Source: a virus. Taken from it: DNA of 25,318 nucleotides. Both the position numbers and the translations under genes were made by a program. The notes under the pieces are model-generated. The model did not search any database. It had not been told where the DNA came from and was given only the letters and a program-made list of their open reading frames with translations. The stretch's first letter is position 1; each line of letters begins with the position of its first letter. Of this stretch, positions 2,470 to 24,277 are shown piece after piece. The stretch is from positions 1 to 25,318 of IMG/VR virus record IMGVR_UViG_3300028840_001059; one strand, written 5' to 3'.

Positions 2470-3537
2470 ATGGCATCCCATTTTCCAGCAGGATTTGTAT
2501 GCAACAATGAGTTGAGGGAAAATTACCCCATAGTTGAAAAGCAACTGCTTCCACTCATCAGAATAAAAGCCACAAAGCTCAAACGTCTGTCTGGCTATGA
2601 TTTTGATGATGCGTTGCAGGAAGGTAGGATTGCGTTGCTCAAGGCCATGGCCAATTATGATTACAATCGAGGCAGTCTTGAGCGATATGTGAGTGTGGTG
2701 CTGGACAACACTTACAATGCCATTCTGTTTGAAAGGATGTCGGCAAGTAGGATGCCCAGAGTTGTGTATTGGGAGGATGACGGGTGGAAGCAATCGCCAT
2801 CAGCACCGGTGTCACTCGATGCCATGATGGGGTTGAAAAAACTGATCAACGAGCCAGCAGATCCATCTTTCACACCAGAACAAGAGTTGGAAAACAATCA
2901 ATTGGAGGAAGTTGCAAGGGTTTTTCGGCTCAAAATGTTCAACAGCCTGAAGGGGAGGGATCTGGATGTTTTTGTTTGCAAGGTGAATCCGCCAATGGAC
3001 CTGTTGATCATGATTAGAAACATGGGTGATGATTATGAAAGGCCAACCAATTTGCACATAGCAAAATATCTTGGAACAGACAAAAATGCTGTAGATTGGT
3101 CATTGTGCAACATCAGGGAGAAATTCACAGACTTGTGCAGGCAAAAGGAATTCAGCGATTTGATGGGTGACACAGTAAGGGGAAAGGGATGGCCAATGAT
3201 TCATACATCTTGGGCGAACAAGCATGACATTGAGTTCATACAAAAAGTGGTTGCTGAAAGGAATTTGGATCCCAAACCACTTGAAGGATGTCACCAACAT
3301 GACGATTATCTTCAAAAATCCGGGGATGATGTGCGCCTTATTGAGAGGTATTCATGGGGTTGCATCATGTTCTTGAAATACAGAGGTAAGTGCTGCACTT
3401 TGGTGGTGGAAGGGAAATTGAATGCTCTGGAGGGCTTGGTATATGGTGAAAAAGGCAGCAGAGAACATTTGCCTGTGAATTGGTACAAAAACTTGGTCAA
3501 AGAACTGAGAACAGGAGGCACACAAAATGTCAGTTGA
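2470..3537 (+). CDS. Divergent sigma-70-family-like factor
   Basis: A 355-residue protein. Residues about 42-92 resemble sigma-70 region 2: DFDDALQEGRIALLKAM followed by YDYNRGSLERYV is the familiar core-binding pattern in which a helix with E-G-x-x-A-L-L-K-A precedes a Y-D-x-x-R-G-S motif. Residues about 162-228 end in a helix-turn-helix-like stretch (PTNLHIAKYLGTDKNAV) suited to region 4. The last about 120 residues, including CCTLVVEGKLNALEGLVYG, match no domain I recognise. A clear GAGAGGA site lies five bases before the ATG. It would direct RNA polymerase to phage promoters; the element repeated at 35-83 and 24946-24993 is an obvious candidate target. It is followed with an 11-base overlap by the zinc-ribbon gene. 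Sigma-like membership is likely; promoter recognition is inference. Confidence 0.7.
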   Translation: MASHFPAGFVCNNELRENYPIVEKQLLPLIRIKATKLKRLSGYDFDDALQEGRIALLKAMANYDYNRGSLERYVSVVLDNTYNAILFERMSASRMPRVVYWEDDGWKQSPSAPVSLDAMMGLKKLINEPADPSFTPEQELENNQLEEVARVFRLKMFNSLKGRDLDVFVCKVNPPMDLLIMIRNMGDDYERPTNLHIAKYLGTDKNAVDWSLCNIREKFTDLCRQKEFSDLMGDTVRGKGWPMIHTSWANKHDIEFIQKVVAERNLDPKPLEGCHQHDDYLQKSGDDVRLIERYSWGCIMFLKYRGKCCTLVVEGKLNALEGLVYGEKGSREHLPVNWYKNLVKELRTGGTQNVS

Positions 3538-4596: not shown

Positions 4597-5568
4597 ATGG
4601 CTTGTAAAATCGTCATAATAGGTGGTGGAATATCTGGTTTGATTGCCAACTATGTTTTCAAACGCCACGACTATGCGCGCAAATGTGACATAAAAGTCGT
4701 GGAGGTTGGAAAGATTGGTGGCGAGTTTGCTATTGGTGGATTGAAATACATCCACAGAACAGACAACATGGTCAGATTGTTCAACGAGCTACATTTGCCT
4801 TACAGCAATTACACAGTGCGTGGTGGAATCATGTTGCGAGGTGATGTGCTTCCATATCCCAATTGCTTTGAGGGGATGGACCCGCAAGAGCGCTCACGCA
4901 TCAGACAAGATCACTATACCAAAACGCGCAGGACAGCACCAGGACCGTGGTCAGAACGGTCCATGAATGATCCGGCATCCATCAAGCCCAGGAAGGCATT
5001 GCGGTGTGATTTTGAAGACCTCATCCATGGCTTGGCGCTGAAAGCTGATGTGATTCCAGAGAGTTTCATGAGACTCACGCCCAAGTCGGCAAGTTGCAGC
5101 AATCAAATCAAATTGCCGTATGATTATCTGATTTTCACCATTCCATTGTGGATCATCAGACCAAACGTTCAATTCTATGTTCCACACGGTGTTGCGATGA
5201 ATTTGAACATCGCCAAGGTGGTTCCAGTCAAGGATGAATATGCCAAATGGGATTATGTGTATACGCCTTACACTCCAGGTGATTGTATTCACAGATTTTC
5301 ACCATCCGGGAATGGTTATGTTGTAGAAGCAAATGGCACATTGGACAATCATAGCATGGAAAGTGATCTGAATTTCATCTTTCCGCAAGGGTATTACATA
5401 TCTGGTATGAAGACTGGGTTGAAGGGCCATTTGCTTCCATTGCCGCAAAAACCTGAATGGCCTGGCAACGTAGTGCCGCTGGGTAGGTTTGCTCAGTGGG
5501 AACCGAGGGCAACAGCAGATGTTGTTCTGGATGAAGCGCAGAAGTTGGCAAAAAGGTGGATCGGATGA
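4597..5568 (+). CDS. FAD/NAD(P)-binding oxidoreductase, UGM/amine-oxidase-like
   Basis: A 323-residue flavoprotein-like enzyme. The N-terminus KIVIIGGGISGL is the dinucleotide-binding GxGxxG beta-alpha-beta fold, and VVEVGKIGGEF provides the second-strand acidic residue and Gly pair seen in FAD enzymes. Near the C-terminus, PLGRFAQWEPR followed by an Ala/Asp-rich helix resembles the FAD-contacting end of UDP-galactopyranose mutase and amine oxidase/protoporphyrinogen oxidase relatives. It is a little shorter than typical members. The frame could be extended to a GTG at 4555, but that lies in the terminator stem, so ATG 4597 is chosen even though only a weak GGTG precedes it. The stop overlaps the next gene as ATGA. 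FAD binding is likely. The substrate is unknown; the neighbours suggest nucleotide or base modification, and that is inference. Confidence 0.7.
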   Translation: MACKIVIIGGGISGLIANYVFKRHDYARKCDIKVVEVGKIGGEFAIGGLKYIHRTDNMVRLFNELHLPYSNYTVRGGIMLRGDVLPYPNCFEGMDPQERSRIRQDHYTKTRRTAPGPWSERSMNDPASIKPRKALRCDFEDLIHGLALKADVIPESFMRLTPKSASCSNQIKLPYDYLIFTIPLWIIRPNVQFYVPHGVAMNLNIAKVVPVKDEYAKWDYVYTPYTPGDCIHRFSPSGNGYVVEANGTLDNHSMESDLNFIFPQGYYISGMKTGLKGHLLPLPQKPEWPGNVVPLGRFAQWEPRATADVVLDEAQKLAKRWIG

Positions 5569-6479
5569 CAGACAACTGGCAACGAATGTGGATTATACAA
5601 TCGGAACAGCAAAAAGCATTTGGTTTAGATCCAGAAGTGATGACTGGTGTTGAAAAGGGGAGGGTGGTCAAGGATCTGTTGTTGGGATTGTATGAAGAAA
5701 CACAAGAGCTTTCAAGGTGCATTGCTCAACATAAACAACATATCCTGAAAACGCCATCAATCGAAAAAGTCAACGTCATTGAGGAAATCACTGACGTTAT
5801 GAAATATTTGATGTCCATTGCTCAGGTGTTCGACATCAATGCTGAAGAAGTGTTTGAGGGATTTCTGAGCAAGACGCAAGTCATCAGCGACAAGGCAGAA
5901 GGTGCCCGGTGTGAGTTGGAAAAAGACACCAAGTTGCTGGGCGTGGATCTGGATGGGTGCGTTGCTGACATATCCAGTTGGCAACGCTTCATGGAGAAGC
6001 AAGGCAAGATGGCGGATTGGGAAGCCATCGATGAATTGGAGACACTTAAAGCTGAATATTACCGTTGTGGTGGATTCAGGGATGTGCCAATGATCGATGG
6101 CGCAAGGGAGGCGCTGGCAGAATTCAGAACAGCCGGATACAAGATTGTCATCATAACAGCCAGGCCACATTGGCAATACAAAAGGTTGTATGCGGATACC
6201 ATCCATTGGTTGAAAAAGAACGGAATTGAACACGATCTGCTGTTGTTCAACAAGGACAAGGCAGAAGCGTTGTATGAACATATCCACCCGGCAACACCAG
6301 CCTGGTTCATTGAAGACCGGGACAAACATGCCATGGAGTTGGTGAACATAGGCATCAATGTGTTGCTACTTGATTACAAATACAACAAAAATGTGGAACA
6401 TGATCTAATCACAAGGGTGTACAATTGGGATGGAATCAAACAGATTGTGCTTGGAGGCGGAAATGATACATCAGATTGA
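5565..6479 (+). CDS. MazG-like NTP pyrophosphohydrolase fused to a HAD phosphatase
   Basis: A 304-residue two-domain protein. Residues about 1-110 are all-alpha and carry E44-E-T-Q-E48 and E74-I-T-D77, the EExxE and ExxD metal-binding pairs of MazG/dUTPase-type NTP pyrophosphohydrolases. Residues about 122-300 are a HAD phosphatase: nucleophile motif D128-L-D130-G, IITARP (motif II Thr), FNKDKAE (Lys of motif III) and FIEDRDKHA (motif IV acids), most like 5'(3')-deoxyribonucleotidases. Together they could take a dNTP to dNMP and on to the nucleoside, cleaning or steering the pool. The ATG overlaps the upstream stop (ATGA) and an AAGGTGGA site precedes it. The next gene overlaps by 17 bases. 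The domain calls are firm; substrate specificity is not visible. Confidence 0.8.
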   Translation: MTDNWQRMWIIQSEQQKAFGLDPEVMTGVEKGRVVKDLLLGLYEETQELSRCIAQHKQHILKTPSIEKVNVIEEITDVMKYLMSIAQVFDINAEEVFEGFLSKTQVISDKAEGARCELEKDTKLLGVDLDGCVADISSWQRFMEKQGKMADWEAIDELETLKAEYYRCGGFRDVPMIDGAREALAEFRTAGYKIVIITARPHWQYKRLYADTIHWLKKNGIEHDLLLFNKDKAEALYEHIHPATPAWFIEDRDKHAMELVNIGINVLLLDYKYNKNVEHDLITRVYNWDGIKQIVLGGGNDTSD

Positions 6480-7200
6480 AATCGCTGGCAGAGTCATGAA
6501 AGTGAAGGACACATCTGACTCAGAGCACAGACCCAGCATTGGAAATGATGCCCCGCATGCGCATTGGTGCATGAAACGCACAGATGCATTTGTGGAATTG
6601 GAGGCTTTCAAGAGAGTGTGCCAGCGGGTTGGGAAAGTGAAGAGTGTGTTTGAGATGTTTGGAGGCAGTGGTTGGCACTCCAACCTCATCCAAAAATATT
6701 GTGAACCGCAGCGTCACATGGCGGTTGATATCAACGAGGATTGTGTGGAATCCATTCACATGTCATTGCCATTGGTGGATGCCATTAGGGCTGATTCATA
6801 CGCATTTTTGAAGGCAACGAACCAGGAATTCACATGGATTCACGCGGATTTCAACTGCTTCACATTCAACAAGGCAGAAGCTGCTGGGAAAGATGGGGAA
6901 AGATACAGTAGGGCATTGCACCACATATTCAAAAAGTCAGAGAGATTTGCAACAATTACAGACAGCGCCATCTTTGGTTTGAAGCGCTTTGAGAAGAATA
7001 GGCAATCATACGGCATCAAGGATTGGCGTGAATACTATGGAAATGCAGCAGGAGCATTTGCAGAGAAATGGGGATATGCTGTGAAGCACATAGTCATTTG
7101 GAAATGGATGGCTGCTATGTTCTTGCTGGAAAAAGACGCCGAACATGGATTTGAAATAGAAATTGTGAGCGAACAGATACCCCACAGGAGGTTGGCATGA
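6463..7200 (+). CDS. SAM-methyltransferase-like Rossmann protein
   Basis: A 245-residue protein whose VFEMFGGSGWHSNLI segment (F63-E64, G67-G-S-G70) resembles the SAM-binding motif I of class I methyltransferases. AVDINEDC (motif II-like) and IHADFNCFTF (motif IV position) follow. The usual DPPY/NPPY or PCQ catalytic motif is not evident; DFNCF takes its place. The start is ATG 6463, five bases after GGAGG; an upstream in-frame GTG at 6430 is less likely. The stop is shared with the ThyX start as ATGA, so the two should be co-translated. It may methylate DNA, RNA or a nucleotide, or be a non-catalytic relative. Fold confidence is moderate and the target is unknown. Confidence 0.55.
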   Translation: MIHQIEIAGRVMKVKDTSDSEHRPSIGNDAPHAHWCMKRTDAFVELEAFKRVCQRVGKVKSVFEMFGGSGWHSNLIQKYCEPQRHMAVDINEDCVESIHMSLPLVDAIRADSYAFLKATNQEFTWIHADFNCFTFNKAEAAGKDGERYSRALHHIFKKSERFATITDSAIFGLKRFEKNRQSYGIKDWREYYGNAAGAFAEKWGYAVKHIVIWKWMAAMFLLEKDAEHGFEIEIVSEQIPHRRLA

Positions 7201-8159
7201 CAAATGAACCAGAAGTGACTTTGTTGTCTTGGACAAATAATCCGCTGGAGACTGTGTACAGCGTTTGGGAAGCATCAAAAACCGAGGATGAGTTGCGCAC
7301 GCCTGAAGAGATCAAGGCTGATGTAGATCCCAAGGAAGTTGAGCAACTATTCAGGGCAGTCATTGCTCAGGGCATCCCGGTTGGTGAACACATTGATTTC
7401 ATCTTCATGTTGGAGAATGTCAGTGTGTCATTTCGTGAACAGATGGTCAGACACCGGATTGGCGTGAAGCCAAGTCCAGAGCGTTTGGGTGTAGATATTG
7501 TGCCCAATCTGTCTGAATCATCTTGGTGGTCCCAATCAATGAGAATTCAGGACATGGGCAGGTTTGCCATCCAAGGCAATTACAGGACGGCACGCAGCAT
7601 CCGGGAACATGGCGATCCAGGCATCCAGGCGTTGTACAACGAGACCATGTCAGTCATCGAAAATACATACAATGAGATGGTGAAGGCGGGCATTCCGATG
7701 GAGGATGCCAGGGATGTGATACCGTTGGGTGCTCATCATCGCATCAGTTGGAAGATCAACATGGCAGCACTCCAGCACATCGTTGGCAAACGAGCGTGTT
7801 GGATTCTTCAGTTGGGTTTGTGGGGGCCAATCATCGACGGTATGGTTGATGAGTTGGTTGAGAAGGTTCATCCAATCTTCAGGGAAGTTGTCACACCGCC
7901 ATGCATACAGGGGAATGAATTCACCGGATGTGTGTTCATGGAGGAATGCCGCAGACGGCTGACTGGCGATGATGCATTGCCGCCTTGTACGCTTCATTTC
8001 AATTATCATCATCTGGATGAACAACACAGGGGGATGGCAGCATTGATGTTGGGCAAGTTGGATATTCCGATGAAGGCAGAGATGATGGAGCGTGCCGAGG
8101 ATTATGCACGTTTTTGGGGCAGAGATCCATACAATGGAAAGATGCTTGGCAGGAAGTAA
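7197..8159 (+). CDS. thyX: Divergent flavin-dependent thymidylate synthase (ThyX family)
   Basis: A 320-residue ThyX-family protein. ThyX makes dTMP from dUMP using methylene-tetrahydrofolate and FAD/NADPH. The MVRHR motif (R85-H86-R87) and a later S109-x4-S114-x-R116 (WWSQSMR) recall the signature RHRxxSxxxxSxR, but about 19 extra residues separate the halves. EDARDVIPLGAHH with INMAALQHIVGKR matches the second conserved block, whereas the usual Gln-x-Glu-Ile-Arg end of the dUMP site reads QLGLWGP. The C-terminal extension has four Cys (PPC, GCVFMEEC, PPC) that might bind metal. An AGGAGG site precedes an ATGA start, and the stop overlaps the next start (TAATG). The family call is good. Whether it methylates dUMP or makes another 5-substituted pyrimidine is open. 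Confidence 0.8.
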   Translation: MTNEPEVTLLSWTNNPLETVYSVWEASKTEDELRTPEEIKADVDPKEVEQLFRAVIAQGIPVGEHIDFIFMLENVSVSFREQMVRHRIGVKPSPERLGVDIVPNLSESSWWSQSMRIQDMGRFAIQGNYRTARSIREHGDPGIQALYNETMSVIENTYNEMVKAGIPMEDARDVIPLGAHHRISWKINMAALQHIVGKRACWILQLGLWGPIIDGMVDELVEKVHPIFREVVTPPCIQGNEFTGCVFMEECRRRLTGDDALPPCTLHFNYHHLDEQHRGMAALMLGKLDIPMKAEMMERAEDYARFWGRDPYNGKMLGRK

Positions 8160-8524
8160 TGCCCACGTTGGAGGAAATGCAGCGATGGCTCCGTGGGGAG
8201 GATGTTGAGGGTTTTCCAGAGCACGACAAGACCAAAGCGCTCAAGAAAGCCAGCAGCTTGAATCTCCGCAAGGTGGATGCCAAAAGGGAAGGGCGCAAAG
8301 AGCGTTGCTGGAGTGGCAAAAAGTATGAGATTATTGGTGATGGTGAAGATGCCATCTTGAAATTTGGCAGATACAATGGTGAACACTTGACACACATGGT
8401 CACAACGCCTGATGGCTACAGTTACATAGAATGGATGCTCAACCAAGACTTCCCAAGAGAATTGCTTGACATCATTGAGAATTTGCTTGAAGGCGAGATC
8501 AAACCAAGGGGAAATAAATGGTGA
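8159..8524 (+). CDS. ExoX C-terminal/DUF3820-like small protein
   Basis: A 121-residue protein starting at the ATG that overlaps the ThyX stop (TAATG). The C-terminal part, LKFGRYNGEHLTHM followed by YSYIEWMLNQDFP and a closing helix, matches the small domain found at the C-terminus of exodeoxyribonuclease X and in stand-alone DUF3820-type proteins (pattern FGKYKG...YLxWLL...F). The nuclease domain itself is absent. The N-terminal half is basic and unrecognised. It may bind DNA or assist a nuclease or polymerase. It overlaps the aminotransferase gene by seven bases. Confidence 0.55.
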   Translation: MPTLEEMQRWLRGEDVEGFPEHDKTKALKKASSLNLRKVDAKREGRKERCWSGKKYEIIGDGEDAILKFGRYNGEHLTHMVTTPDGYSYIEWMLNQDFPRELLDIIENLLEGEIKPRGNKW

Positions 8525-9858
8525 ACAATCCAAATTTGGAAGGTGGGGCGGAAATTCGCAACGGTCGGTTGATGAACAACGTGGAGCGCTATCCATTGCT
8601 GGTAGGTGCGGCGCAAGGTTCCACACTGTACAATGAAGGATGCGCAGACAAGAAAAAGTGGATGCACGCTGAACCAATGCCCTATGGGCTGTTGGATTAT
8701 TGGGGCGATGAGGGGGTGTGTTCATTGGGATACAACAGCCCAGAAGTATTCAGAGCCATCCACAAATTCTTGGGCACAGGATATCCACACCAGTTGCCAG
8801 ATATCTATCCACACCCGTTGAGATATCAGTTGGCTGATATGCTCTGTGAACGGACTGGGATGGATCGTGTGTTCCTGGCCAATTCAGGCACAGAGGCCAA
8901 TGAATCAGCGATCAAAATTGCCCGGAAATATTGGTGGGACAGGGGCAAGCACACAAAATACGATGACAAGGTGGCAGAACGCCACATCATTTTTACCATT
9001 GAGGGCAATTTCCACGGGCGCACAGGTTTGAGTCTGGCTGCTGGGGACTTCCGGGTCAGCCCATATCACAGGTGGGGGTTTGGGCCGTTGCCGGAGGGAT
9101 TTGCTGTTTTGACGGCTGACCCAGATTGGACCAGGCCTGTGTTCAAACAGGTTGTCTCCAACGGTGAGGAACATGAGCCGGTTGAGCCTGATTGGGAGAG
9201 TGCAGCGGCAATTATCCTTGCACCTGTGTTGGGAAACAATTGCGTCAGGACGTATCCACAAGCATTTTTCGATGAGTTGATGTACATCAGGCAAAAGTAT
9301 GGCGTGTTGCTCATCTTCGATGATGTTCAGGCAGGCAGTGGTCGGGCTGGCGCATATGCTACTTGGCAACATTACAACGTGAAGCCAGACATCATGACGT
9401 TGGCCAAGGGGATGGCCATGGGATTCCCTATGAGTGCCATGCTGGCAACTGAGAAAGTTGCCAGAACATTCACCCCAGGGGTGCATTTCAACACATTCGG
9501 TGGTTCACCATTCGTGTGTCACATGGCTATCGAGATGTTGCGATGGCTGGATGATCACATGGAGGAAATCAACGAAAAGGGCAAATTCATCAGGGAGTGG
9601 TTGGCTAGTTTGGATGATTGCATCGGGGCAGTGGATGGAATAGGGATGCTCAATGCTTTCACGCCTGTTTGGGATGAGTTGCCATTCGATGGATTTCAAC
9701 TCATCAGGGAGGCACGAAAGCATGGATTGAGCATGGCCACGCATCGTGCCAGTGGGCCGGTCAGATTCACTCCGCCATTGAATGTCGCGATGGAGGAAAT
9801 CAACACAGCAATAGACAAGTTGCACAAATCCATGTGCGTGTTGAAGGGGGAATCTTGA
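8518..9858 (+). CDS. Class III PLP-dependent aminotransferase
   Basis: A 446-residue enzyme of the acetylornithine/ornithine aminotransferase and glutamate-1-semialdehyde aminomutase superfamily. Visible motifs are FLANSGTEANESAIKIAR (phosphate-binding region), EGNFHGRT, LIFDDVQAGSGR (Asp contacting the pyridine nitrogen) and TLAKGMAMGFP, in which K297 is the expected Schiff-base lysine, followed by FNTFGGSPFVC. The length is normal for the family and all core motifs are intact, so it should be active. It transfers an amino group between an amine or amino acid and a keto acid. Such genes are rare in phages. Placement between ThyX/ExoX-C and a P-loop kinase suggests a nucleotide or DNA-modification role, or host amino-acid diversion. 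AAGGGG precedes the ATG. The stop overlaps the next start as TTGA. Confidence 0.85.
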   Translation: MVNNPNLEGGAEIRNGRLMNNVERYPLLVGAAQGSTLYNEGCADKKKWMHAEPMPYGLLDYWGDEGVCSLGYNSPEVFRAIHKFLGTGYPHQLPDIYPHPLRYQLADMLCERTGMDRVFLANSGTEANESAIKIARKYWWDRGKHTKYDDKVAERHIIFTIEGNFHGRTGLSLAAGDFRVSPYHRWGFGPLPEGFAVLTADPDWTRPVFKQVVSNGEEHEPVEPDWESAAAIILAPVLGNNCVRTYPQAFFDELMYIRQKYGVLLIFDDVQAGSGRAGAYATWQHYNVKPDIMTLAKGMAMGFPMSAMLATEKVARTFTPGVHFNTFGGSPFVCHMAIEMLRWLDDHMEEINEKGKFIREWLASLDDCIGAVDGIGMLNAFTPVWDELPFDGFQLIREARKHGLSMATHRASGPVRFTPPLNVAMEEINTAIDKLHKSMCVLKGES

Positions 9859-10457
9859 TCATCATCCTGGAAGGTTGCAATGGGGTGGGCAAGTCAGAAT
9901 ATGCCAGACGGTTGTCAGAGGCATTGAAAATCCCCATTTGTAGACCATTCAGGAATGGTAACACGGACACCCATTGGGATTCACACAACGTTGAATTACA
10001 AGATTGGCTCAAAGATGCAAAGGTGCCAGTCAATACGCATGTCGATGATTTGTATGTTGCTGATTTTTTGGACAACTTTGGAGTTGACGCAATATTGGAT
10101 CGGTCACTTCCATCTGCCATAGCATACGGGCGGGTGTTGGATCTGTCTGACGGATACTATCAAAACAGACTTGTGTGCCAATCGTTGTATGAGTTTTGGG
10201 AGAGTCGCATCACCAAACGTGATGATTCGTTGATGGTGTGGATGACTTGTGCATATGAAGATGCCAAGAGCAGGTGTGCAAATAGGGCATTCCCAAATAA
10301 AGGCACGTGGACAAAACTGGAAAATGAATTCAAGAGGTTGTTCCAGCGATGTCGGTTGCCCAACAAGAAGCAAATTAACACGTCAACTGTGAAGGTTGAT
10401 GATGGAGTCAAATCAATACTCAAGGTGTGTGAGGAATGTCTGAACCGGAAAGAATGA
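9855..10457 (+). CDS. P-loop nucleotide kinase, thymidylate-kinase-like
   Basis: A 200-residue P-loop kinase. The N-terminus IIILEGCNGVGKS is the Walker A motif of dNMP/thymidylate kinases (G7-x4-G12-K13-S14). ILDRSLPSAIAYG matches the DR segment of thymidylate and deoxynucleoside kinases that contacts the base or sugar. The LID-like basic region near CAYEDAKSRCANR is plausible. The start is TTG 9855, four bases after AAGGGGG and overlapping the aminotransferase stop (TTGA); an in-frame GTG at 9834 is the alternative. The stop overlaps the polymerase start as ATGA. It probably phosphorylates dTMP or a modified dNMP; a kinase acting on modified bases in DNA is a less likely option. Confidence 0.7.
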   Translation: MIIILEGCNGVGKSEYARRLSEALKIPICRPFRNGNTDTHWDSHNVELQDWLKDAKVPVNTHVDDLYVADFLDNFGVDAILDRSLPSAIAYGRVLDLSDGYYQNRLVCQSLYEFWESRITKRDDSLMVWMTCAYEDAKSRCANRAFPNKGTWTKLENEFKRLFQRCRLPNKKQINTSTVKVDDGVKSILKVCEECLNRKE

Positions 10458-13400
10458 CACATTTGCATGTCCATTCGGACATGTCGCAACTAGATGGTTG
10501 CGCCAAGATGGCGGACTACATCAAGATGGCAAAAGAACGTGGCCACAAGGCCATAGCTTTCACAGAACATGGCACCATGCGTGGATTCTACCAGTTGTTG
10601 CTTGATTCAAAGGAACACGACATCAAACCCATCTATGGCGTGGAATTGTATGTGTGTTCAGATATGACCAGGAAGGGGTTGACATCGGAAGAAAAGGCAG
10701 CAGTCATTGGTGACAAAAAGCTGAACAAAAAAGAGCAGAAGGAATTGCTCAGAGAACATGAGAATCTATTGGGCATCCGGGGCAGTTGGCACATGACGGC
10801 ATGGGCCAAGAATATGACCGGATTGAAGAATTTGTTCAAAATAACAAGCAAGGCGTGGATTGAAGGATTTTATTACAAACCACGCGTTGATTTGAAATTG
10901 CTTATTGAGCATGGCGATGGCATCATCGTGGGGACAGCTTGTTGCGGTGGGATGCTTGGGGAATTGGCATGGAAGGGGAGAGACAAGCAAGCTATGGAGG
11001 CGGCTGATGCCCTATATGAGAGATTTGGGGATGACTTCTGGTTGGAGATAATGCCACATGATCTCCCTGAGCAAGTCAAGACCAATCAATTCATGATTGA
11101 GTGCCAAAAGCGTTGGAGCAGGAAGGGAAGATTGCTGGCAACGCAAGATGCGCACTATTTGCACGAGGGTGATTGGGAGCATCACGAGGTGTTGTTGGCG
11201 ATTGGTACCAATTCAGTCATGAGCAACCCAGATCGATTCAGATTCACAGACAAGGGATTCCATTTCAGAACACGCCAGGAAATGTTGGAAGCATTCAAGA
11301 AATATCACCCATACATCGATGAATCCATGGTGAATTCTGCTTTGGATAAGACAGTTGTCTTGGCTGACGGGGTTGATTGCCAAGTGGAGATTGACAGGTT
11401 CAAATGCTTGGCGCCAGCACCTTACATCCCAACAGAATACAATGGGGATGAGTACAGATATATGTTGGAGTTGTGCAAGAAGGGCTGGGCATGGCGTGAC
11501 ATCCGTGGACGTGCCAAGAGGTTGGCCGCCAAGGAAAATGTATCATCCATGGTGATTGAAACACGCTACATCGAGCGCTTGAAGATGGAATTGACTGCAA
11601 TCAAGAAACAGAAGTTCATAGATTATTTCTTGATTGTGCATGAGTTGTACAAATGGATACGTGAACAGAACATCGCATGTGGGCCGGGCAGAGGTTCAGC
11701 CGCAGGCTCCATTGTGTCATTCCTGTTGGGCATCACATCGGTTGATCCAATTGAACACAAACTCCTGTTTGAACGATTCATCAACCCCAACCGTGTTGAT
11801 ATGCCGGACATTGACATGGATTTTGAAGATGTCAGGCGACAGGAAATCATCGAACATTTGCGTGAAAAATATGGTAGTGACAAGGTTTGCCAGATAGCAA
11901 CGATTGGAAAGTTGAGCGGAAAGCAATGCCTGAAGGATGTCAGCCGGGTGCTTGAGGTGCCATTCCTGGAAGTGAACCAAGTCACCAATAGCATCATTGA
12001 ACGGTCCAGCGGTGATGAACGAGCCAGCATGACCATTGAGGATTCATTCAAGGAATTCAAGGTTTGTCGTGAGTTCAATCAGAAGTATCCCAAGGTGCTT
12101 CATCACGCCAAACGCCTGGAGGGATTGGCTAAGAATTTGGGAATACACGCAGCAGGCGTGGTGACATCTCCGGTGCCATTGACCGAGTTGGTGCCGTTGG
12201 AGACACGTGATCACTCTTCAGGGAATCCAATTGTTGTTTGTGCTGTGGATATGTATGGCGCAGCAGCGATGGGATTGCTCAAGTTGGATGTGCTTGGGCT
12301 TAGAACTATGACGGTGCTCAGGGAAGCTGTGGAGGCAATCAAGAGGCGTCATGGTGTGGAAGTGGATTTGGAGCGGTTGGATCTTGATGATCCGCATGTG
12401 CTTCAAGGATTCACAGACCATGAATACATCGGTATATTCCAATATGATTCACCAGGCGCTGACAAAATCTGCTCAGGCGTTGAGTTTGTGAACTTTGAGG
12501 ATGTGGCAGCTATGACTGCACTCAATCGACCGGGCACAGCCAGAAGTGGGTTGGCAACACAATATGTAGCACGCAAGAAAAATCCAGAACTTATCAAGAA
12601 AACCGCATTTCACCCCAAGGTAAGTGAGATCACATCTGACACACTGGGCATCATCGTGTATCAGGAACACGTCATCAAAATCTTCACTGATATCGCTGGT
12701 TTTGCACCTGGCACAGCTGACTCACTGCGCAAAAAGATTGCCAAGAAATGGGGTGATGAGACTATTGGCAAAGAGCGTGAGAATTTCATCAAAGGTGCGT
12801 GTGACAAGACGGAGGGTATGACACCAGAGATTGCTGGAAAATTGATGGATGCCATCACATTTTTTGGTTCATATGGATTCAACAAATCTCATGCCACAGC
12901 GTATGGCATGATTGCATATTGGGGCATGTGGCTCAAGATCAAATATCCGCTTGAATTCTATTGGGCTTTGTTGAAGAATGAGCCCAACAGAATCAGGATT
13001 CAACAGGTTGCCAAAGATGCCAAGCGCCATGGGGTTGAGATAGCCAATCCAGACGTCAATGTGTCCAGGATTGGATTCTCAATTGATGACAGCAAGGGTA
13101 TCATCCGAGGCAGCATGGTGGATATCAAAAATGTGGGCGAGACAGCTGCAACATCTATCATGGAGCAGCAGCCATTCAAGGACTTTTGTGATTTTCTGGA
13201 ACGGGTGAACAGGCGCAAGGTGAACAAGCGGGTTGTGGCGAGTTTGGCCAGAGCAGGAGCGCTGGACAACCTGATTCCAAATGTCAGATGGTTCATTGAG
13301 AACCTGGATGAAGTTTGGAAGGTGGTGGGCAAAGCCAAATTCCGCAAAGGAGTTGAAGAACTGCTGGAGAAGTCCAAATCAGAGCCGCAGTGGTCTGATG

Positions 13401-14290
13401 AAGAGAAACAGTTGATTGCGTCCAAGGTCAGTCCGTTGGCATTTGGCCAACATCCGGTGGACGCCTATGGGGATTTCATCAGCCGGTCAATCAAAGTGCC
13501 GATTGCCAATATGAGTGATGAAAACTTCTTCAAGGACCACAATGGCAAGGGGTGCTTCATCTTGGGTGTGGTTGTGGAAGTCAAATACAACCAGGTGGGC
13601 GATTTTCATACAGGTGCATTGCCTGATGAAGATGAGCGCACGCGGATGGGTTGGGGCAAGAGATATGCCAACGTCAATGTGGAGGATGCCGGTGGCAAAC
13701 AGAATCGTATCAAGGTTGATTGGGACATATTTGATGACTACCGGGAGATTGTTGACGCTGGTGTGGGCACACCGGTTGTATTGCATGCGATTGCCAATGC
13801 GAGGTATGAAAACCTGCGTGCCCAATTCATAATAGATCTGGAAGAATACAGACAAAAAATTGAGAATGGCAAGGAATTGAGTATTTGGGAGCGCATCTTG
13901 TCAGGACAGCATCCGGTGTTGACCAGACAATGGAAGTCCAAAGCATCCAGGCGTGCGGCAATGATTCCGTATGGAGACACAATCAAACAAGCAGGCGCAA
14001 TCTACAAAGACAAAGGTGAAGCCACATTCAATATCACCGGAGTTATCACACACGTCAAAGAAAAATATGACAAGAAAATGAACTTGATGGCTTTCTTTGG
14101 AGTCATCGGGGTTGAAGGTTATGCTGATGTGCTTTGCTTTGCTTCCAGCTGGTCAGATTTCAGCCATCACATAAAACCAGGCCGGTTGCTGACGCTCAAG
14201 CTGTCTCGTGAAAGGGGTGCAAACTTCCTTCACAGCGACACAGGGAAAATTTGGATCTTGGATTCATCGAAAGTGCCCAAGGACACATAG
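10454..14290 (+). CDS. dnaE: DNA polymerase III alpha subunit (DnaE-type, with PHP domain)
   Basis: A 1278-residue replicative C-family polymerase. The PHP domain comes first: HLHVHSD (H5, H7), LDG (D14), FTEHG (H39), GVELYV and TQDAHYL keep the metal-ligand pattern of PHP domains that act as 3'-5' exonucleases. The palm shows CGPGRGSAAGS, then MPDIDMDFED with catalytic D452 and D454, and KLDVLGLRTMTV with the third Asp (D612). GFNKSHATAYGMIAYW marks the fingers/HhH region, and a beta-binding/OB-like tail follows (VITHVKEKYDKKMNLMAFF). It is slightly longer than E. coli DnaE. The start is taken at ATG 10454 because it forms an ATGA overlap with the kinase; ATG 10436 adds six residues. No separate epsilon subunit was seen, so PHP proofreading is plausible. 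The family is certain. Confidence 0.95.
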   Translation: MTHLHVHSDMSQLDGCAKMADYIKMAKERGHKAIAFTEHGTMRGFYQLLLDSKEHDIKPIYGVELYVCSDMTRKGLTSEEKAAVIGDKKLNKKEQKELLREHENLLGIRGSWHMTAWAKNMTGLKNLFKITSKAWIEGFYYKPRVDLKLLIEHGDGIIVGTACCGGMLGELAWKGRDKQAMEAADALYERFGDDFWLEIMPHDLPEQVKTNQFMIECQKRWSRKGRLLATQDAHYLHEGDWEHHEVLLAIGTNSVMSNPDRFRFTDKGFHFRTRQEMLEAFKKYHPYIDESMVNSALDKTVVLADGVDCQVEIDRFKCLAPAPYIPTEYNGDEYRYMLELCKKGWAWRDIRGRAKRLAAKENVSSMVIETRYIERLKMELTAIKKQKFIDYFLIVHELYKWIREQNIACGPGRGSAAGSIVSFLLGITSVDPIEHKLLFERFINPNRVDMPDIDMDFEDVRRQEIIEHLREKYGSDKVCQIATIGKLSGKQCLKDVSRVLEVPFLEVNQVTNSIIERSSGDERASMTIEDSFKEFKVCREFNQKYPKVLHHAKRLEGLAKNLGIHAAGVVTSPVPLTELVPLETRDHSSGNPIVVCAVDMYGAAAMGLLKLDVLGLRTMTVLREAVEAIKRRHGVEVDLERLDLDDPHVLQGFTDHEYIGIFQYDSPGADKICSGVEFVNFEDVAAMTALNRPGTARSGLATQYVARKKNPELIKKTAFHPKVSEITSDTLGIIVYQEHVIKIFTDIAGFAPGTADSLRKKIAKKWGDETIGKERENFIKGACDKTEGMTPEIAGKLMDAITFFGSYGFNKSHATAYGMIAYWGMWLKIKYPLEFYWALLKNEPNRIRIQQVAKDAKRHGVEIANPDVNVSRIGFSIDDSKGIIRGSMVDIKNVGETAATSIMEQQPFKDFCDFLERVNRRKVNKRVVASLARAGALDNLIPNVRWFIENLDEVWKVVGKAKFRKGVEELLEKSKSEPQWSDEEKQLIASKVSPLAFGQHPVDAYGDFISRSIKVPIANMSDENFFKDHNGKGCFILGVVVEVKYNQVGDFHTGALPDEDERTRMGWGKRYANVNVEDAGGKQNRIKVDWDIFDDYREIVDAGVGTPVVLHAIANARYENLRAQFIIDLEEYRQKIENGKELSIWERILSGQHPVLTRQWKSKASRRAAMIPYGDTIKQAGAIYKDKGEATFNITGVITHVKEKYDKKMNLMAFFGVIGVEGYADVLCFASSWSDFSHHIKPGRLLTLKLSRERGANFLHSDTGKIWILDSSKVPKDT

Positions 14291-21985: not shown

Positions 21986-22884
21986 GCCATCTGTTGATAT
22001 TCGATGCCCGCCACCTTCTGTATCGGGCTGCCGATGTGTTCAGCGATTTGGGCGTTGAAGCAGATGGCGAATTCATCCCGACTGGTGCCATGTATGGCTT
22101 TCTCAATGTCGCAATGACAGTGCACAAGCGATGGGATGGGATTGCTGTGGTGGCGTGGGAGGGAACCAAGAATTTCAGATATGGGCTGTATCCTGAGTAC
22201 AAGCAGAAAAAGGAAGTCACAGAGGCAGACACCCAGATCAGGGAGAGGATGGAAATCCAGGAAGTCCACCTCAAAGAAATGCTCAGCATGTTGGGCATCT
22301 ACCAATACAGCGGGATTGGGTGTGAAGCGGATGACGTCATTGGAACCATCTCCAAACGGATGAGCAAGAAGGGGTACAATGCAATCATCTACTCTGGGGA
22401 TGGTGATCTGCGACAATTGGTTGATTCGCAGATCATGTGTGTATCTCCAGGCTTCAAGGGGAAGGACAAAGCATACACGTTCGGTGAAGTGGTCAGGAAG
22501 GATGGCGTGGAACCCAGCCAGATCCCTGACATGAAGGCGCTGGCAGGGGACACATCTGATAACATCCCTGGCGTGCGTGGCGTAGGACCAAAGACGGCAT
22601 CAAAGCTCATATCTCTGTATGGGGACATTGAAGGGGTGCTGCGAGCGGCACAGGAATCAGACGACTGGCCTGTGCCCGTGCGTCACAAGACAGCGATATT
22701 GGGCAAGGCCAATGATATTCGGCTGTTCAAGCAATTGACGACCATCAAAACAGATGTGCAACTGGTGAGGATTGAACCAAACCGCAGACCCAAGGAATTT
22801 GTGAAAAAGCTGTATGATTACAAATTCTCATCACTCATCACGCATCTCAAATTGAGTGCGTTGCGGAGGATGGCTGGGCCATGA
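21982..22884 (+). CDS. 5'-3' exonuclease / flap endonuclease
   Basis: A 300-residue PIN/FEN-fold nuclease like the N-terminal domain of DNA polymerase I and T5 D15. The metal-binding acids appear in LIFDARHLLYR (D8), GCEADDVIG and YSGDGDLRQL. The helix-hairpin-helix DNA-binding motif is GDTSDNIPGVRGVGPKTASKLI. It removes RNA primers and 5' flaps on the lagging strand, matching the DnaE-type polymerase upstream, which lacks this activity. The start is in an ATGA overlap with the resolvase and the stop overlaps the glycosylase ATG the same way. Confidence 0.92.
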   Translation: MSHLLIFDARHLLYRAADVFSDLGVEADGEFIPTGAMYGFLNVAMTVHKRWDGIAVVAWEGTKNFRYGLYPEYKQKKEVTEADTQIRERMEIQEVHLKEMLSMLGIYQYSGIGCEADDVIGTISKRMSKKGYNAIIYSGDGDLRQLVDSQIMCVSPGFKGKDKAYTFGEVVRKDGVEPSQIPDMKALAGDTSDNIPGVRGVGPKTASKLISLYGDIEGVLRAAQESDDWPVPVRHKTAILGKANDIRLFKQLTTIKTDVQLVRIEPNRRPKEFVKKLYDYKFSSLITHLKLSALRRMAGP

Positions 22885-23471
22885 TGTCAAGATTGGACAC
22901 AATTGTTGATTTGTGGAGCAAGTGCAAGCGATGTGAATTGCACAAGTGCCGCAACAAAATTGTCCAATGGAGAGGTTCACCAGAAGCAAAATTGGCAATC
23001 ATTGGGGAGGCACCCGGTGCAGATGAGGATGAACAGGGCATCCCATTTGTTGGACGGGCGGGCAATGCCCTGGATGACTTGATTGTGAAAGCTGGGTTGA
23101 AGCCGGACAAAGATGTGTTCATTTGCAACATCCTTGCATGCCGGCCACCCAATAACCGTGAGCCACTGCCGGATGAAGTGGAAGCATGCAAGCCCAGATT
23201 ACAGGCATTGCTTTGGGTGGTGAAGCCAGAAGTCATCCTGCTGGCCGGTGGGACGGCTGCAAGAGTGATGGCTGGTGTCAGGGGGATTGGGCAATGGAGG
23301 GGAGAGGAAGTTGCAACTGAAATGCTAGAATGGAAGGACAAGGCAGTCATATTCCCAGCCGTTGTCACATACCATCCATCATATTGGATCAGGAATGGAA
23401 GGGACAGGTTGTTGGGAGAAACAATGGCAGAGGACATCAGACATGCAGCCAGAGTTGGAAAAATCGCCTGA
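22881..23471 (+). CDS. Family 4 uracil-DNA glycosylase (Fe-S)
   Basis: A 196-residue family 4 UDG. It carries the four Cys of the 4Fe-4S cluster at the expected spacing (C15, C18, C87, C103), the active-site block IGEAPGADEDEQGIPFVGRAG, the NILACRPPNNR segment and the C-terminal TYHPSY motif. It removes uracil (or a related base) from DNA. Placement near dCMP deaminase and with ThyX suggests control of uracil in phage DNA. The start is ATG 22881 in an ATGA overlap; a second ATG follows at once. The end overlaps the next gene by 29 bases. Confidence 0.92.
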   Translation: MMSRLDTIVDLWSKCKRCELHKCRNKIVQWRGSPEAKLAIIGEAPGADEDEQGIPFVGRAGNALDDLIVKAGLKPDKDVFICNILACRPPNNREPLPDEVEACKPRLQALLWVVKPEVILLAGGTAARVMAGVRGIGQWRGEEVATEMLEWKDKAVIFPAVVTYHPSYWIRNGRDRLLGETMAEDIRHAARVGKIA

Positions 23472-23844
23472 AGAGGCAAAGCAGCCAGAAAAGCCCAAGA
23501 AGCAGCAACATGTACAAAAACTGCGACCTGGGGATACACCAAATGGCGGCATGATCCGTGATTTCTTGAAGAAAGTCAAACACAGAGGCAACCCCAAGGA
23601 TTTTGTCATAATTGTGGGCAATAGGTTGTTGGATTGGTGGGGCAATTATGACATCATGTTCCAGCCGGAAGGGGAGGAACAAGCCAAAAAGATGGGTGTC
23701 AACGGCATCACCTTGTTGCACAAGAAGGATTTGCACAAGATACTGCCTGAAGAAATTGCCTCACAATTTTGGAACAAAAAAATGAGGTTGCGGATTTCAC
23801 CCAAACAAACACCAAAGAGGAAGAAAGATGTGCAGGCCAAGTAA
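23443..23844 (+). CDS. Basic protein of unknown function
   Basis: A 133-residue protein from ATG 23443, nine bases after AGAGGA, inside the end of the glycosylase gene. Residues 1-30 are a Lys/Glu/Pro/Gln-rich disordered start. The folded part holds [35 protein letters not shown] and [15 protein letters not shown]. The C-terminus is strongly basic, suggesting nucleic-acid contact. No family is recognised. It overlaps the deaminase gene by 17 bases. Confidence 0.7.
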
Positions 23845-24277
23845 GGATGCATATTTCATGGGTTTGGCGTGTGAAGCGGCACTTCGCTCAACATGCAAAC
23901 GGCACAAAATAGGTGCTATATTGGTCAGCAGTGATGGATATGTATTGGCTACTGGATACAATGGAGCGCCAAAAGGGATGAAGCACTGTTTGGACATTGG
24001 GTGCATACGGGATCAAAGGAACATTCCATCAGGCACCCAGCAGCAATTGTGTAGGGCTGTGCATGCTGAGCAGAATGCGCTCATCCAAGCAGCGAGTCAC
24101 GGCACAAGCCTTGATGGTTCAACATTGTATTGTACGCACTCTCCATGTGTGATTTGCTTGAAAATGCTCATCAATGCTGGTATCAAGCGAATTGTGCATG
24201 GCAAACTTTATCCAGATGGTCTGGCTGAAGAAATGCTCAAGGAAGCAATTTGGGTGGATTTGGCAAAATGGGATTGA
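23828..24277 (+). CDS. Deoxycytidylate (dCMP) deaminase
   Basis: A 149-residue zinc enzyme converting dCMP to dUMP, the substrate of thymidylate synthase. The zinc and catalytic residues are H79-A-E81 (HAEQNAL) and C107/C110 (SPCVIC). [12 protein letters not shown] is the usual dCMP-deaminase substrate loop. The extra Cys and His (C23, C54, C59, C75) resemble the second structural zinc site seen in T4 and ComEB-type enzymes. The length is normal. GAGGAAGAAAG precedes the ATG. It feeds the ThyX reaction encoded about 16 kb upstream in the same unit. Confidence 0.93.

Follow-up and report, generated by a model that had tools for sequence, protein, structure and literature searches.

A conserved viral gene cassette around a divergent ThyX as a candidate pathway for an amine-bearing thymine substitute

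Introduction

What does a virus make with a flavoenzyme, a nucleotide hydrolase, a thymidylate-synthase-like protein, an aminotransferase and a nucleotide kinase encoded side by side? The question is raised by the IMG/VR virus record IMGVR_UViG_3300028840_001059 of an uncultivated bacterial virus; its whole 25,318 bases are referred to here as the window, and all its main genes lie on the + strand. At positions 4597-10457, the map of open reading frames (ORFs) revealed seven tightly packed + strand ORFs, each overlapping or abutting the next, in the order flavin adenine dinucleotide (FAD) oxidoreductase, MazG-HAD hydrolase, methyltransferase-like protein (MT), ThyX, ExoX-C-like protein, class III aminotransferase and dTMP-kinase-like protein. 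A contiguous, overlap-coupled block of this kind had been reported in a preliminary description of the DNA, together with the suggestion of a pathway for a modified pyrimidine or nucleotide, an amino-bearing pyrimidine being thought conceivable, and the place, strand and packing of the ORFs were borne out.

Five of these genes were found together in 21 distinct viruses. Together they probably encode a pathway that makes a modified nucleotide of thymine type ahead of replication. The best explanation, towards which we lean slightly, is a pre-replicative virus pathway that replaces thymine, wholly or partly, by an amine-bearing 5-substituted deoxyuridine.

Results

Co-Occurrence of the Core Genes

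Related loci were searched for in IMG/VR from two independent starting points, ThyX and the FAD protein, and gene maps were drawn with one profile per protein. The window ThyX used as a query retrieved 11 loci, an alignment of six ThyX sequences retrieved 36, and an alignment of 13 FAD proteins retrieved 26, eight of them on new contigs. Single-sequence IMG/VR queries with the FAD, MT and aminotransferase proteins returned nothing; matches were obtained later with alignment queries.

In the reciprocal search, the genes for the FAD protein, MazG-HAD, ThyX, aminotransferase and kinase were all present at every FAD-protein locus with enough flanking sequence. Two FAD-protein matches (loci L068 and L083) and one ThyX match (L015) were incomplete because the contig ends. 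All five genes were carried by 46 loci, representing 21 distinct viruses after removal of near-identical ThyX sequences, a step that also drops contigs retrieved twice. The genes lay within about 4-5 kb and occurred in three core orders: FAD-MazG-ThyX-aminotransferase-kinase, FAD-MazG-aminotransferase-ThyX-kinase and FAD-MazG-aminotransferase-kinase-ThyX.

Protein identity to the window dropped to about 20-30% among the cassette relatives. The five-gene set is thus kept together beyond chance and beyond simple close relationship. Co-occurrence had been named in the preliminary description as the check on its proposal, with absence counting as refutation, and it was very strong in both search directions. 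The seven-gene set proposed there was reduced to these five core genes, MT and the ExoX-C-like gene not belonging to the core.

Searches of cultured phages at the DNA and protein levels gave no match to the block, and the aminotransferase matches in such phages were mostly ordinary host-type sequences. The enzyme set had not been recognised in the preliminary description either, and no description of it was found in the literature searched, a search outside which the main papers on thymidine hypermodification and base modification lay.

The Cassette ThyX

The third core gene (7197-8159, +) encodes a divergent ThyX. It matched the Pfam family Thy1 (PF02511) with an E-value of 1.5e-21 and 77.5 bits, above the gathering score of 24.8, and scored 56 bits against the NCBIfam thyX equivalog for FAD-dependent thymidylate synthase, below the cut-off of 87.9.

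Alignments with Thermotoga maritima ThyX, from which the residue numbering of that enzyme was derived, showed that the equivalents of Q75, RHR, S88, R90, E144, R147 and R174 were all kept. In window numbering, the retained dUMP-site residues are R85-H86-R87, S114, R116, R172 and R199. RHR, S88, R90, R147 and R174 hold and activate dUMP. The equivalent of Y91 was lost, with I or V at position 117, and that of R165 (position 190) was never R. In the signature region (7449-7544, +), about 16 residues are inserted after RHR, and the ordinary short motif, which ends in S-x-R-Y, is replaced by WSQSMR, extended as WSQSMRI.

Y91 has been assigned as the likely general acid of ThyX (PMC8316439), and 5-hydroxymethyl-dUMP has been reported as an acid-trapped intermediate of ordinary ThyX (PMC3498832). 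Taken together, these reports make a ThyX that releases a hydroxymethyl product chemically plausible, and we infer that the cassette ThyX itself would release 5-hydroxymethyl-dUMP.

In the tree, the cassette ThyX proteins all grouped in a single clade, with support 98, nested in a larger virus-only subfamily. When bacterial and archaeal genomes were scanned with the ThyX profile, none of the 80 pattern matches was confirmed, so that the subfamily was virus-only at that sensitivity. One cassette virus, L016, also encodes a second ThyX of ordinary type; its cassette ThyX would therefore not simply be the thymidylate synthase of that virus.

Four C-terminal cysteines (C201, C236, C245 and C264; window 7797-7988, +) were invariant in the six aligned ThyX sequences and kept across the wider set, possibly as a metal or Fe-S site. 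They were rejected as a unique feature, since several recur in other viral ThyX proteins, the ones from SRV and KPP22 among them.

The Other Core Enzymes

The first core gene (4597-5568, +; alternative GTG start 4555) encodes an FAD-dependent oxidoreductase with the UGM/PPOX/MAO (GR2) fold, found in cassette viruses only. By sequence, it gave only weak family matches. Its structure model (pLDDT 79, pTM 0.77) best matched the fold of UDP-galactopyranose mutase (UGM) with a Z-score of 25.2 over the full length (317 residues), closely followed by PPOX and amine oxidases. Both the fold and the FAD motif of UGM were present, the GxGxxG dinucleotide-binding motif being kept in 13 of 13 aligned relatives, at 11-16% identity to UGM structures. 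As a model-based match, it gives the predicted superfamily of the enzyme, not its reaction.

In the second core gene (5565-6479, +; alternative GTG start 5556), a MazG pyrophosphohydrolase domain (Pfam, 1.3e-6) is fused to an NT5C-type HAD deoxynucleotidase domain (5.8e-10). Among 15 relatives, the HAD aspartate pair D127/D129 and MazG D76 were invariant, and E44 nearly so. The protein accordingly carries the domains and catalytic residues of a putative thymine-nucleotide clearing enzyme (Dtm/Dtt). By analogy with such enzymes, the fusion could perform both dTTP to dTMP and dTMP to thymidine conversion.

The fourth core gene (8518-9858, +) encodes a class III (omega) pyridoxal phosphate (PLP) aminotransferase, with a Pfam E-value of 8.5e-65 and 219 bits against a cut-off of 30.5. 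The PLP lysine K297 (codon 9406-9408), D268 and the arginine of FHGRT were invariant. Its score against NCBIfam argD (acetylornithine/ornithine) was 229.8 bits, below the cut-off of 410. The families closest to it have terminal amines and aldehydes as substrates (acetylornithine, ornithine, putrescine and GABA). Where those enzymes have EPxQGE, with its two glutamates, the window protein has APVLGNN, and the stretch was altered in all aligned relatives, which suggests another substrate. In this context, the simplest would be a terminal aldehyde on the base.

The fifth core gene (9834-10457, +) encodes a P-loop nucleotide kinase of dTMP-kinase type. It matched phrog_761, 'thymidylate kinase', at 1.1e-12, and its profile matched dTMP kinases in the PDB at 3e-7, with DR and S..Y motifs.

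Optional Genes and Neighbourhood

The MT gene (6430-7200, +) encodes a Rossmann, S-adenosylmethionine-methyltransferase-like protein whose TRM5/TYW2 and BioC matches fell below every curated cut-off and whose profile found no match in the PDB. It is an optional member, present in the window, L001, L002, L015 (weakly), L016 and L036, and at least about 10 kb away in the contig of L020. Every match of the MT search fell in cassette viruses, in which its position varied or the gene was absent.

The small ExoX-C-like gene, described earlier as a member of the block, is present as an ORF (8159-8524, +) with a sub-threshold Pfam match only (0.005). Its start is most likely 8159, not 8114. Most of the other viruses carry the gene apart from the cassette, usually directly upstream of DnaE. 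It probably belongs to the replication module.

The window order runs from a CobT-like VWA protein, a sigma-factor-like protein and a Zn-ribbon protein through the block to DnaE, RecA, SbcD/SbcC, a RuvC-like protein, a 5'-3' exonuclease, uracil-DNA glycosylase (UDG) and dCMP deaminase. The CobT-like (123-2225) and sigma-factor-like (2470-3537) genes were conserved upstream in most cassette viruses. The DnaE-type DNA polymerase III alpha (10436-14290, +), which would use the resulting deoxynucleoside triphosphate, adjoined the cassette in 20 of the 21 distinct viruses; in L009 it was not adjacent within the flanking stretch examined. Large in-frame insertions were seen in DnaE of L018 (11948-17920), L002 (12866-17737), L013, L016, L019 and L020, and that of L018 matched the Pfam intein splicing domain (5e-24).

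The UDG family protein (22881-23471, +; Pfam 3.6e-30), as assigned by family match, argues against plain uracil (deoxyuridine, dU) DNA in the same phage. A dCMP-deaminase-family protein (23828-24277, +; Pfam 4.4e-26) is a possible source of dUMP. Elsewhere, one cassette (L085) contained two aminotransferase genes (9919 and 11470).

Subfamily ThyX outside the Cassette

At 14 loci, a subfamily ThyX was found with no cassette within the stretch examined. Its neighbours included a nucleoside deoxyribosyltransferase, a YfbR-like HD 5'-deoxynucleotidase and a radical-SAM/SPASM enzyme. As judged by these families, the subfamily ThyX seems to be repeatedly accompanied by phosphatases that clear nucleotides and by a different modifying chemistry.

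A candidate second pathway was noted at L021, L024, L026, L030, L033, L034 and L037, which combine the subfamily ThyX with a nucleoside 2-deoxyribosyltransferase and the YfbR-like HD deoxynucleotidase, and in several cases a radical SAM/SPASM enzyme; these loci adjoin a DNA polymerase with an exonuclease domain. Five cassette-free loci add a second, further altered ThyX near the first (L024:7742-8650, L037:6413-7294, L028, L030 and L032), with changed RHR and SxR motifs that lack the usual residues. This paralogue is perhaps a partner subunit or a second enzyme.

Discussion

Proposed Pathway

From the genes, their co-occurrence, and the fold and catalytic-residue assignments, we infer the following reactions, their order and their product. 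The divergent ThyX would hydroxymethylate dUMP, supplied in part by the dCMP deaminase, at C5 and release 5-hydroxymethyl-dUMP with no reduction to dTMP. Oxidation by the FAD enzyme would then turn hydroxymethyl into formyl, and the class III omega-aminotransferase would replace this aldehyde by a primary amine, the donor being an amino acid, probably glutamate. The simplest product would be 5-aminomethyl-dUMP. The dTMP-kinase-like enzyme would form the diphosphate, and the triphosphate would enter DNA through the phage DnaE. In parallel, the MazG-NT5C fusion would take dTTP through dTMP to thymidine, removing the competition from thymine, and MT, where present, may tailor the product.

The identification of the product specifically as 5-aminomethyl-dU is tentative. 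The full scheme is likewise put forward as a possibility and not as an expectation: a hydroxymethylase of ThyX lineage, a flavin oxidase and a transaminase would together build 5-aminomethyl-dUTP, as such or in a methylated or otherwise tailored version, as a free nucleotide that replaces thymine at replication.

Several points weigh against a thymine-replacing pathway of this kind. Its weakest step is the conversion of hydroxymethyl to formyl, since alcohol oxidation is not the usual chemistry of the predicted UGM/PPOX/amine-oxidase fold. The loss of Y91 was also found in other viral ThyX proteins, and the ThyX structure model was poor in the active-site loop, so that neither a changed product nor a lost function can be read from it. 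The specificity of MazG enzymes is unpredictable, the MazZ of S-2L cutting dGTP (PMC8342488). With DnaE adjacent in most loci, some of the synteny reflects common descent of the replication module. Finally, the cassette is known here from the genes of uncultivated viruses alone, and searches of cultured phages turned up nothing related to the FAD protein, MT or the kinase.

Alternative Explanations

One alternative is ordinary thymidylate supply, with ThyX producing dTMP, the kinase producing dTDP, MazG-HAD in a housekeeping role, and two unrelated auxiliary metabolic passengers, the FAD protein and the aminotransferase. ThyX, kinases and dCMP deaminases are common in phages, the key dUMP-site residues of ThyX are kept, and no other thymidylate synthase was found in most cassette records searched. 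However, the supposed passengers occurred in every complete locus, the ThyX active site is remodelled, and an enzyme of dTMP-destroying type beside a dTMP maker would be self-defeating. The second, ordinary-type ThyX of L016 would also be needless if the cassette ThyX supplied thymine. We regard this explanation as unlikely.

Two further readings are less probable still. A cytosine version, with the ThyX-like enzyme acting on dCMP to yield a base of 5-aminomethyl-cytosine type, has a precedent among thymidylate-synthase relatives in the dCMP hydroxymethylase of T4, a ThyA homologue. It fits poorly with the kinase and NT5C domain, which resemble dTMP/dUMP enzymes, and with the phage dCMP deaminase, which feeds dUMP; we consider it improbable.

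A sugar or nucleotide-sugar pathway, in which the UGM-like flavoenzyme would work with the aminotransferase to produce an amino sugar for DNA or the virion, ThyX being incidental, could draw on UGM as the closest fold of the FAD enzyme. It could also draw on an NAD-dependent epimerase encoded inside one cassette, between ThyX and the aminotransferase (L017:10774-12189). This epimerase was seen in one inspected locus only, however, and inspection of the cassettes revealed no glycosyltransferase. The usual substrates of class III aminotransferases are omega-amines, not sugars. A sugar pathway would also not account for the presence of MazG-NT5C, ThyX and the kinase in each of the 21 viruses, and it, too, has a low probability.

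Post-replicative hypermodification on DNA, as in the phages M6, ViI and PhiW-14, would involve enzyme classes in common with the cassette, since flavin, PLP and kinase enzymes belong to the pathway of those phages. The likeness to this route drawn in the preliminary description calls for correction. The 5-hydroxymethyl-deoxyuridine (5-hmdU)-DNA kinase (HMUDK_hel, PF18723) and ADDT (PF18724) were each found in none of 11 cassette records (up to 114 kb, possibly incomplete), with positive M6 and PhiW-14 controls, and a ThyA-type synthase or dUMP hydroxymethylase (PF00303) was found in none of 15 records. A post-replicative route is therefore very unlikely. Hardly credible at all is a nucleotide-pool counter-defence in which host defences are starved or escaped through the destruction or alteration of nucleotides and phage DNA is left unchanged: the MazG and NT5C domains belong to families that degrade nucleotides, but such a function has no need for ThyX, an aminotransferase and an FAD enzyme in one invariant set.

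Implications

The replacement of bases in phage DNA is a known kind of process, and no known system with this enzyme set was found. If the proposed thymine-replacing pathway is correct, it would provide a further route for placing an amine on a base before replication. In the full scheme, the base would be the first in DNA to be made by a transaminase, and the conserved gene set would be the first to show a hypermodification pathway derived from ThyX. Viruses would then have turned ThyX, usually annotated as a plain thymidylate synthase, to the modification of bases. Such a base would explain nuclease resistance of these viruses, and the five-gene module could be moved into E. coli for the production of amine-bearing DNA in vivo.

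Comparison with Known Systems

The systems of M6, ViI and PhiW-14 resemble the cassette in combining a thymidylate-synthase homologue, a kinase, and flavin and PLP steps with a predicted amine-bearing thymine substitute. They differ in that 5-hmdU is first incorporated into DNA and the base is then elaborated there, by way of the 5-hmdU-DNA kinase and ADDT, whereas the combination of ThyX, class III aminotransferase and nucleoside monophosphate kinase in the cassette suggests work on free nucleotides. In some Pseudomonas phages, 5-aminomethyl-dU reportedly arises from glycine, after replication, with a flavin lyase and no transaminase, as Lee and colleagues are said to have described in 2022. 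As a lead, the base predicted for the cassette would be an intermediate of that route.

In Bacillus phage SP-15, the modified T, dihydroxypentyl-uracil, is synthesised at the triphosphate level, and the phage has a pair of ThyX proteins, one of which the authors of that work proposed as a hydroxymethyluridylate synthase (PMC5977210). Unlike those of the cassette, the candidate genes of SP-15 are of carbohydrate type. Neither gp130 nor gp9 of SP-15 was matched by the ThyX profile, and gp130 was rejected as a member of the cassette-ThyX subfamily.

Among the dU-DNA phages, proven dTMP phosphatases include an NT5C-fold protein of PBS1 and an HD protein of DSS3_VP1, and PhiR1-37 has a dTTP pyrophosphatase, all of which keep T out of phage DNA (PMC12697855). 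These phages share with the cassette virus a phage enzyme clearing thymine nucleotides, present in the cassette as NT5C fused to MazG. Their endpoint is dUTP, whereas the cassette virus adds further enzymes and a UDG.

The Z-cluster of S-2L (purZ, datZ and mazZ) is likewise a compact, conserved gene set in which a MazG enzyme reshapes the pool of deoxynucleoside triphosphates before replication (PMC8342488), although it serves a purine, 2-aminoadenine, and uses different enzymes. By analogy, the logic of the cassette looks pre-replicative, like that of the dU-DNA and Z-DNA systems.

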